This document shows positions 1,516-32,430 of a DNA stretch of 34,026 nt, one piece after another. Each line of letters begins with the position of its first letter. The stretch's first letter is position 1. This stretch comes from Bacteroidales bacterium (GTDB lineage: Bacteria > Bacteroidota > Bacteroidia > Bacteroidales > P3), in contig JAIRRI010000205.1 of the NCBI GenBank assembly GCA_031256055.1, positions 1 to 34,026 on the forward strand, written 5' to 3'. The notes beneath the pieces were generated by a model. The model had not been told where the DNA came from, did no database searches, and worked only from the letters and a program-made list of their open reading frames with translations. The position numbers and the translations under genes are program-made.

Positions 1516-2412
1516 ATGACTGACAAACATTTACAAAACATATTAACCGACTACTCGCAAATGAGCGTGAATAGCCTGATCGAATTGAAAAATTTGATCG
1601 AAGACTATCCGTATTGCCAAACGGCACAGATTTTGTATTTACTGAATTTAAGGCGTTTGGAAGAAGATACGTTTGATACGCGTTTGCCTTACACGGCTAT
1701 TTGTGTGAATAATCGTCAAAGATTGAAATGTGCGGTTGAGCAAGTGGATGAAATTTTAGCGAAGGAGAGCGGCACGAGGTACGAGGTGGCTTCAACTACG
1801 CTCAGCCACCGATCGTCGAGCGGAGTCGAGACGATCAAACCTCGTACCCAATACCCAGCAATCTCGCACCAAACAACCTTCCGAAATAAAACCATCTCGG
1901 AATTGCTGAATTTACAAGAGCCCAAACCTTCCGCAGTTACTCAAATCAAACTTCCAAAAACCCAAACTTCAGAAGATTTTTTGCTTGAGCAACTGCGACA
2001 AGAAACATTAGCAAAAGTCAACGAACGTTTGCTCGAAATTCGCAAAACAGAAATGGTCGACGTGGATTTTTCGGAAACACCAAAACATAAAGCCCTTATT
2101 GATAAAGTGATTGCGACAAATCCGAAAATTTCCAAAATGGATGATTTGGAGATTAGCAGACTATCGCATTGGAAAATCAAGGAGGAGAATAGTATGCGTG
2201 AAAATTTTGATGTAACAAGCGAAACGTTGGCACTTCTTTATGTGGCTCAGGGAGCACCTGAAAAGGCTCGTGAAATATACAAGGCTTTGGGTAAAAAATA
2301 TCCCGAAAAAGCCGAACATTTTGCACATCTCAGCAAACAAATAAAATCGACAAAAACAACAAATACAATAAATTCAAAATCTAATAATCATAAACCAAAA
2401 ACAAAAAAATAA
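1516..2412 (+). CDS. TPR-like conserved Bacteroidales protein
   Basis: The protein has 298 residues, no signal peptide and no membrane segment. The N-terminal 80 residues are helical (SLIELKNLIEDYPYCQTAQILYLLNL), and the C-terminus (about residues 234-280) contains a TPR-like unit, ETLALLYVAQGAPEKAREIYKALGKKYPEKAEHF. I know this type from Bacteroidales as a gene just before secG; its function is unknown to me. The middle of the protein is low-complexity and contains in frame a palindromic repeat element (1778-1848, roughly residues 89-111) that is probably an insertion. The stop codon overlaps the secG start by one base, so the two are co-translated. The true start is ATG 1516, since the longer reading begins inside the promoter. 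Confidence 0.75.
   Translation: MTDKHLQNILTDYSQMSVNSLIELKNLIEDYPYCQTAQILYLLNLRRLEEDTFDTRLPYTAICVNNRQRLKCAVEQVDEILAKESGTRYEVASTTLSHRSSSGVETIKPRTQYPAISHQTTFRNKTISELLNLQEPKPSAVTQIKLPKTQTSEDFLLEQLRQETLAKVNERLLEIRKTEMVDVDFSETPKHKALIDKVIATNPKISKMDDLEISRLSHWKIKEENSMRENFDVTSETLALLYVAQGAPEKAREIYKALGKKYPEKAEHFAHLSKQIKSTKTTNTINSKSNNHKPKTKK
1778..1848. repeat. Two-hairpin palindromic repeat element inside a coding region
   Basis: An outer 10-bp perfect stem (1778-1787 with 1839-1848) encloses two hairpins. Hairpin 1 pairs GGTGGC 1785-1790 with GCCACC 1805-1810; its loop is TTCAACTACGCTCA. Hairpin 2 pairs GATCGT 1811-1816 with ACGATC 1831-1836; its loop is CGAGCGGAGTCGAG. The loops are partly complementary to each other (10 of 14 positions). 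The architecture matches the element in rsmE (21089-21146), although the stem sequences differ. It is read in frame as part of the TPR-like protein. Confidence 0.7.
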
Positions 2413-3713: not shown

Positions 3714-4237
3714 ATACAAGTCAAGAATACTACGCCGTAATTGCCGAATGCCGTGCGCTTTTCGAGAAAAAAATGCGCGACTACGGAAGTGCGTGGCGTA
3801 TTCTGCGCCTACCGTCGATGACCGATCAGATTTTCATCAAAGCCAACCGCATTCGAAGCATTCAGACAAGTGGCGTTCAGAAAGTTGACGAAGATATTCG
3901 TGGTGAGTTTATCGCCATTGTCAATTATTCGATTATGGCACTCGTTCAACTCGAATTGGGCGATAGCGATAAAGCCGATTTATCGCTCGAAAAAGCCCTC
4001 GAATACTACGACAAATACGCCAAACAAGCCCACGATTTGATGATGAACAAAAATCACGATTACGGCGAAGCATGGCGCGATATGCGACAATGTTCATTTG
4101 TTGATATTATTCTCCAAAAAATTCTCCGCATCAAACAAATTGAAGATAACAGCGGAAAAACCCTTGTTTCTGAAGGGATTGATGCGAATTATTACGATAT
4201 GATGAATTATGCTGTTTTTGCGTTAATAAAAATGTAG
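3710..4237 (+). CDS. DUF1599 / Nmad1 protein
   Basis: The protein has 175 residues and consists of two tandem copies of the same unit. KxxDYGxAWRxxR occurs at about residues 21-33 and again at 114-126. Each copy is followed by a helical block ending in NYSIMALVQL or NYAVFALIKM. This matches the DUF1599 family (nucleotide modification associated domain 1); the family name is established but a biochemical role is not. Its start overlaps the PfkB kinase, and in Bacteroidales it commonly sits beside the DoxX-like gene, as here. The TAG stop lies inside a palindromic repeat (4234-4261), so a repeat insertion may have redefined the C-terminus. Confidence 0.85.
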   Translation: MNTSQEYYAVIAECRALFEKKMRDYGSAWRILRLPSMTDQIFIKANRIRSIQTSGVQKVDEDIRGEFIAIVNYSIMALVQLELGDSDKADLSLEKALEYYDKYAKQAHDLMMNKNHDYGEAWRDMRQCSFVDIILQKILRIKQIEDNSGKTLVSEGIDANYYDMMNYAVFALIKM

Positions 4238-4261
4238 AGACGCGCGGCCGTGCGTCTCTAC
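4234..4261. repeat. GTAGAGACGC palindromic dispersed repeat, copy 1
   Basis: This 28-bp palindrome (GTAGAGACGC 4234-4243 with GCGTCTCTAC 4252-4261, centre CGGCCG) has one mismatched pair. It supplies the stop codon of the DUF1599 gene and sits in the 48-base gap before the DoxX-like gene. A second copy lies between sdhA and sdhB (32395-32418). Confidence 0.8.
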
Positions 4262-19327: not shown

Positions 19328-21719
<2,392 letters not shown>

Positions 21720-31564: not shown

Positions 31565-31585
31565 ATGTTCGGCTACGCTCGACAT
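31565..31585. repeat. Half copy of the palindromic repeat element
   Basis: ATGT (31565-31568) and ACAT (31582-31585) enclose TCGGCTACGCTCG, which resembles loop 1 of the two-hairpin elements (TTCGACTCCGCTCA). Only one hairpin is present, in the gap between the M16 and sdhB genes. Confidence 0.45.
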
Positions 31586-32374: not shown

Positions 32375-32394
32375 AACAGATTTATTTGTTATGC

Positions 32395-32418
32395 AGAGAC
32401 GCACGGCCGTGCGTCTCT
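32395..32418. repeat. GTAGAGACGC-type palindromic repeat, copy 2
   Basis: AGAGACGCACGGCCGTGCGTCTCT is a perfect 24-bp palindrome in the 56-base gap between sdhA and sdhB. It shares AGAGACGC...CGGCCG...GCGTCTCT with the copy at 4234-4261. Confidence 0.8.
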
Positions 32419-32430
32419 ACGGTTTCATGA

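Follow-up and report, generated by a model that had tools for sequence, protein, structure and literature searches.

A candidate REP-like family of DNA hairpins with a conserved 12-nucleotide head, paired in inverted orientation within a TPR-like gene of a Bacteroidales bacterium

Within a window of 34,026 nucleotides, the whole stretch of Bacteroidales DNA analysed here, a TPR-like gene carries a palindromic element of 71 nt. Our results show that the repeated unit is a single hairpin, composed of a 12-nt head, GAGCGNAGTCGA, on a stem of 4-8 bp whose sequence is nearly free. The window element is two such head hairpins in inverted orientation, surrounded by an outer stem that is private to this copy. 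We regard it as probable, at roughly 0.62, that the element is an inverted pair from a REP-like, non-autonomous, multi-copy family of DNA hairpins. The element and the second doublet of the window, in rsmE, are laid out as follows.

1516 to 2412, + strand: TPR-like gene of 298 aa, with the doublet in frame as ...TTLSHRSSSGVETI...
1778 to 1787 and 1839 to 1848, no strand: outer arms GGTACGAGGT and ACCTCGTACC, a 10-bp stem spanning 1778 to 1848, not a family feature
1785 to 1810, - strand: hairpin 1, stem GGTGGCT/AGCCACC, head TCAACTACGCTC at 1792-1803
1811 to 1836, + strand: hairpin 2, stem GATCGTC/GACGATC, head GAGCGGAGTCGA at 1818-1829, an exact match to the consensus
20922 to 21719, - strand: rsmE gene, carrying the second doublet (21090-21141) in frame
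21090 to 21115, - strand: rsmE hairpin 1, stem GTTCGCT/AGCGAAC around TCGACTCCGCTC (21097-21108)
21116 to 21141, + strand: rsmE hairpin 2, stem GGACATT/AATGTCC around GAGCGAAGTCGA (21123-21134)

The first-pass annotation had described a 10-bp outer stem enclosing two inner hairpins, all of which are present at 1778-1848; the stems of both inner hairpins are 7 bp long. Read on the - strand, the head of hairpin 1 is GAGCGTAGTTGA, with one change from the head consensus. The loops are conserved as the annotation held, but they measure 12 nt and not 14, the longer figure having included the closing T-A or C-G pair. Compared with shuffled sequences, the 71 nt fold better by 3.5 sd as RNA and by 3.1 sd as DNA. 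The host gene itself has a TPR_6 match at residues 238-264 that is weak and below the cutoff. The rsmE doublet has other stems and similar loops, as had been noticed, and both doublets lie inside open frames, so that the reading frame is indeed preserved. We also noticed a possible degenerate single head, GAGCGTAGCCGA, at 31569-31580 on the - strand of the window.

The outer stem did not survive as a part of the element. An outer stem of at least 8 bp occurs in one of 18 doublets in the genome of the window (G000, 2.14 Mb), against 0.6 expected with shuffled flanks, and that one is the window copy. It occurs in none of seven doublets in the genome of a sister species (G002), whose orthologue of the TPR gene (L235) has the doublet without it.

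The exact head occurs 97 times in G000, whereas a reversed-pattern control occurs 0 times; the repeat seen in the window is therefore not due to chance. The corresponding counts in G002 are 239 and 1. The further copies that the annotation called for were thus found, by the dozen and scattered. We read all copies in G000, and every head is flanked by short inverted repeats, mostly of 4-8 bp and perfect. Its 73 sites comprise 49 with a single exact head and 23 with an inverted pair. Two stem groups dominate: the A-type, CGTCATTCC-head-GGAATCCCC, which also occurs with GTC/GAC and whose copies start with CGTC-AT and end with AT-CC, and the B-type, GGTGGCT/AGCCACC with GGTCGTT/AACGACC, of which the window copies are variants. 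Most copies in a genome share a few stems, so some of the diversity among stems reflects the history of subfamilies. The stem often has a short 5' foot. Of 254 halves, 54 have GTCA at position -8, a foot that belongs to one group of lineages, the remainder having mostly CGNN or no foot.

The proposal that stems vary freely and yet stay paired around conserved loops was borne out when compensatory changes were examined. At the loci of our own set, tallied over hairpins with a stem of at least 5 bp and at least eight head matches, heads are nearly invariant, with a free choice of base only at position N (T 41, G 18, A 15, C 9). In 248 cross-phylum hairpins, stem pairs 1-4 are Watson-Crick in 89-96% of cases, versus 31-71% expected from composition, and pair 5 in 60% versus 30%, with pairs 6-8 near chance; pairs 3 and 4 (90% and 89%) use all four pair types. 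An alignment of 59 mostly cross-phylum hairpins showed covariation at all five stem pairs, each with changes on both sides. The covariation score was 1.05, whereas shuffling gave 0.29 and sliding the partners gave no more than 0.21; 95.6% of cells were paired versus 56.9% after shuffling, and 128 cells had changed on both sides versus 39.9, these sequences being partly related, so that the shuffle counts are not probabilities. The far hairpins had been picked by their exact heads and not by their stems, and the stem test is therefore not circular; for the same reason, head conservation in the far set is partly by construction.

The 12-nt head, GAGC-GNA-GTCGA, is probably a structured single-stranded DNA motif. 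In the fold we propose, G1A2 and G11A12 would form tandem sheared pairs, G3-C10 and C4-G8 would be paired, T9 would be bulged, and the apex G5-N6-A7 would be a GNA triloop of the d(GCGNAGC) kind. In DNA, the minihairpin d(GCGAAGC) and GNA loops have exceptional stability (PMC6582339, PMC6479982), which supports the GNA loop part of the fold. Of 279 hairpins whose heads read GAGC...G(T)CGA, almost all carry a GNA apex, in loci that were mostly fetched with GNA patterns. A head lacking the T, GAGCGNAGCGA, is found in seven of the 279 and occurs in relatives, and GAGC and GTCGA can stay in place when the tip is replaced. The free N, the optional T, and the replaceable tips between GAGC and GTCGA are consistent with the proposed fold. 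A folding program leaves the 12-nt head unpaired, which counts against the non-canonical pairs; if the G.A, G-C, and C-G pairs are counted as stem, the apex is 3 nt. Recognition of such a folded head is the step by which the element may be kept and spread as single-stranded DNA, and the recognizing factor would act in trans, so that a host need not encode it.

Placement was then compared with what a DNA or an RNA element would show. Single heads have no bias relative to the strand of neighboring genes (10 versus 10 and 4 versus 7), which favors a DNA element. At unidirectional sites, 26 of 34 are nearer the upstream gene, that is, near gene 3' ends, a preference that fits RNA roles too. N is equal within doublets in 12 of 23 cases versus 6.7 after shuffling (p 0.015), and in 8 of 12 versus 5.8 in a further count (p 0.10); the far set has a larger excess, confounded by lineage. 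The excess may point to exchange or pairing between the heads of a doublet. The annotation had favored a kissing-loop structure as what is recognized or maintained; read as an RNA element, the two complementary loops would interact in the transcript and be conserved for that purpose. The complementary loops, the excess of matched N, the preference for gene 3' ends, and the stability of the hairpins as RNA all agree with such an RNA element. The two loops are nevertheless complementary by construction, since the doublet is an inverted duplication of one hairpin, and the 49 sites out of 73 with a single exact head, the unbiased strand of single heads, and the mismatch of N in about half of the G000 doublets all speak against loop pairing as the reason for conservation. 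No Rfam family reached the gathering score (best E 0.34). The data do not require kissing loops, and we consider the RNA reading very improbable.

Most sites lie outside ORFs, and the in-frame copies mostly use one preferred frame (STxLx...LSxVE). In-frame heads occur in DNA polymerase I, MetH, a radical-SAM methylthiotransferase-like protein, a sigma factor, and DnaG (L044, L064, L048, L019, and L040). The copies in polymerase I (residues 329-343), MetH (332-344), the methylthiotransferase-like protein (120-132), and the sigma factor (90-102) lie between Pfam domains, and that in DnaG lies past the last matched domain. For any N, five of the six reading frames of the head are free of stop codons, and the sites are mostly linkers; insertion into genes would therefore be tolerated. 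The use of one preferred frame in many genes could also mean that copies have been domesticated as useful protein linkers. Against this stand the location of most sites outside ORFs, the paired changes seen in the DNA stems, and the differences between species at the same site. The comparison of TPR orthologues that the annotation had suggested uncovered related species whose gene is without the insert (G003, G001, and G010). The RsmE linker (L305, L306, L307) holds a decayed doublet in G002, is empty in G003, and has a different, CGTC-type repeat in G004; differing in-frame repeats thus occupy it in three species, G000 included, and none in the fourth. Domestication as a linker is hardly credible on these data. 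The head family does explain why certain peptides without meaning (STxLx...LSxVE, FDYAQ, and ERSRS) recur in predicted proteins, where they are able to mislead annotation as well as domain models.

Inverted head pairs were found in at least 118 genome-contig stretches from many phyla. Hosts among the matches listed include Flavobacterium, Tenacibaculum, Pseudanabaena, Leptolyngbya, Scalindua, Leucothrix, Chloroflexales, Acidobacteria, Spirochaetes, Desulfuromonadaceae, and a Daviesbacteria genome, along with others, and 15 viral contigs carry such pairs. Head counts are very uneven, ranging from 0 to 194 across 296 Bacteroidota genomes. Among the nearest relatives of the source genome, only members of the same genus and G010 are head-rich, the rest of the same family having few or none. 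In Tenacibaculum skagerrakense, three consecutive doublets lie inside 460 bp (L101:721-1184).

Comparison of orthologous sites in G000 and G002, which have about 89% identity in aligned DNA, revealed how copies change. The doublet in the TPR gene is shared by the orthologue L235, where hairpin 2 has the stem GGTCGTT/AACGACC, with two compensated changes, and the tip of hairpin 1 is longer by 24 nt (a 36-nt versus a 12-nt head). Across the eight heads shared by orthologues, there are three double, paired stem changes, and N differs in four. The longer head of 36 nt, GAGC-27 nt-GTCGA with a hairpin nested in its tip, was also found at L008, L041, L058, L059, and L281; at L041, L281, and the TPR site, the same stem and flanks carry a 12-nt head in one orthologue and a 36-nt head in the other. 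Copies also differ in presence between the sister species: the whole doublet at L052, an A-type element at L036, a site represented by L270 versus L285, and, at L017, 24 nt at the center of another palindrome. At L017 and likewise at L280, a composite in one species stands opposite a plain palindrome in the other. No clean or consistent case of target duplication was seen at the sister-species sites, L017 being compatible with 0-2 nt.

These sites bear on an explanation by tip exchange, in which heads would spread and diversify mainly because hairpins break at their tips (for example, by SbcCD-type cleavage) and are repaired, or switch template, with another hairpin as the source; the inner part would be swapped and the outer stem and flanks kept. 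Orthologous hairpins that share stems and flanks but not tips (the TPR site, L041, and L281, together with the composites at L017 and L280) hint at exchange at the tip, as do the difference of N in four of eight shared heads, the matching of N within doublets, and the paired stem changes between orthologues. The events are few, though, the composites are also dispersed repeats and could reflect independent insertion, and the first arrival at an empty site (L052, L036, L285) is left unexplained. We therefore hold tip exchange to be unlikely as the account of the family. A stronger version is a self-spreading tip common to many bacterial phyla: the 12-nt head, as a structured single-stranded DNA motif, would propagate through copying into the tips of further hairpins, for instance after tip cleavage and repair, would leave outer stems and flanks in place, and would need no transposase of its own. 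We think this version quite improbable.

The search for a mover centered on RAYT transposases, which the annotation had named as possible partners. G000 has three Y1 genes (L071, L072, L073), with their own flanking repeats TCCCGTTAGGGAC..ATTGGTAGAAA or GGGCTGAAAGCCC. The RAYT genes of G002 (L312, L315) both contain GTAGGGGC-type (GTAG) palindromes, and no 12-nt heads were found at these two loci. At 27 Y1 loci of relatives, 12-nt heads lie near L228 only, a gene that has GCCGC repeats of its own, and an 11-nt head pattern lies near one other, L231. None of about 33 Y1/RAYT loci examined has the 12-nt head as its own repeat; the repeats they carry instead are TCCCGTTAGGGAC, GGGCTGAAAGCCC, GCCGC..., and GTAGGGGCG. 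PF01797 matches are similarly frequent in head-rich and other Bacteroidota genomes (28 of 34 and 182 of 262). The RAYT model NF047646 detected divergent RAYTs in G002 and G258 that PF01797 had missed. Since G002 does have a RAYT, it is G042 and the other genomes without a match that carry the argument from missing Y1 genes. No recognizable Y1 or RAYT gene was found in G042, a closed genome with 194 heads, where NF047646 has no match at E 0.1; at the same threshold, it has no match in G124, G232, G041, or G274, and in the closed genome G069 (134 heads), it finds only a fragment broken by stops.

A RAYT/IS200-type Y1 transposase, since lost or acting from elsewhere, may still be what moves the heads, which would then be classical REPs in the manner of REPINs. 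The REP-like design (hairpin, 5' foot, and inverted dimers) agrees with this, as does the commonness of RAYTs in the phylum, in head-rich genomes and in divergent forms in G002 and G258. The other repeats at the examined loci, the like frequency of PF01797 in head-rich and other genomes, and the NF047646 results weigh on the opposite side, and we judge a RAYT-driven origin unlikely, though a serious alternative. A search for some other mover clustered 313 ORFs neighboring heads at far and viral loci and yielded, as recurrent genes, only housekeeping groups of three; on a Chloroflexales contig (L082), inverted doublets 1.2 kb apart enclose no transposase.

The resemblance to REP/BIME elements pointed out by the annotation stands, in that the unit is a hairpin, the dimers are inverted, and many copies are dispersed. 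Di Nocera et al. (2013; PMC3733652) described GTAG and CGTC REPs, the latter including RPE-4 and RPE-6 of Rickettsia and dRS3 of Neisseria, and in their account CGTC REPs form inverted dimers, have intragenic copies, and lack a dedicated transposase. The head family is like them in its short palindromes, inverted dimers, complementary stem changes, presence in several phyla including Bacteroidetes, in-frame intragenic copies (in DNA polymerase I, among others), and want of a dedicated transposase. Their tag (CGTC, TGTC, or CCTC at one end) followed by an AT start is found in the A-type copies but not in those of the window. CGTC REPs are there given loops of 4-5 nt, stems of 8-9 bp starting with AT, and a CCA tail, and the head family, with its 12-nt head on a stem of 4-8 bp, falls outside this definition. 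Our best reading, on the description in the text of that paper, is that the family is REP-like with a new head and is set apart from CGTC REPs. A literature search with head strings, which covered papers outside subscription journals, retrieved nothing relevant, and an earlier description is possible. Since 2013 at the latest, it has been an open question how transposase-less REPs of the CGTC class spread. The head family makes this question testable, as it offers a sharp candidate recognition motif, copies that differ between close genomes, and a closed head-rich genome in which no Y1 gene is recognizable.

Other mobile elements offer partial parallels. The family is like MITEs in being non-autonomous, dispersed, and palindromic, but unlike them, it has no terminal inverted repeats outside its hairpins and no clear target duplication. 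TnpA of the IS200/IS605 family recognizes, as single strands, short end hairpins whose stem contains an unpaired T. By comparison, no tnpA or tnpB was found with heads, and the bulged T of the head belongs to the proposed fold.

Finally, we compared the family with GTAG REPs and REPINs, which it resembles in hairpin size, inverted dimers, and intergenic sites near gene 3' ends. It differs from them in that it has no GTAG tag, the window copies being without a GTAG (or GGAG) foot, and in that no RAYT gene with the head as its own repeat was found among the loci examined. GTAG repeats in the source genus are a separate family, located inside RAYT genes (L312, L315), and share some slots with the heads. 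At 5 of 13 head sites in G002, the orthologous slot of G000 holds a GTAG-type palindrome, versus 3.1% of gaps; the 13 are those for which a G000 orthologue was fetched by its flank, and the background is from intergenic gaps of G002.

G002, L256:3159, L258:7082, L258:8475, L271:13531, and L273:1534: GAGCG hairpin
G000 side, L275, L284, L274, L276, and L280: GTAG-type palindrome

A small number of permissive intergenic slots is the plain explanation of this sharing between GAGCG and GTAG palindromes. The window itself also contains a second, GTAG-tagged REP-like palindrome, GTAGAGACGCGCGGCCGTGCGTCTCTAC, at 4234-4261, with a close variant at about 32393-32420.
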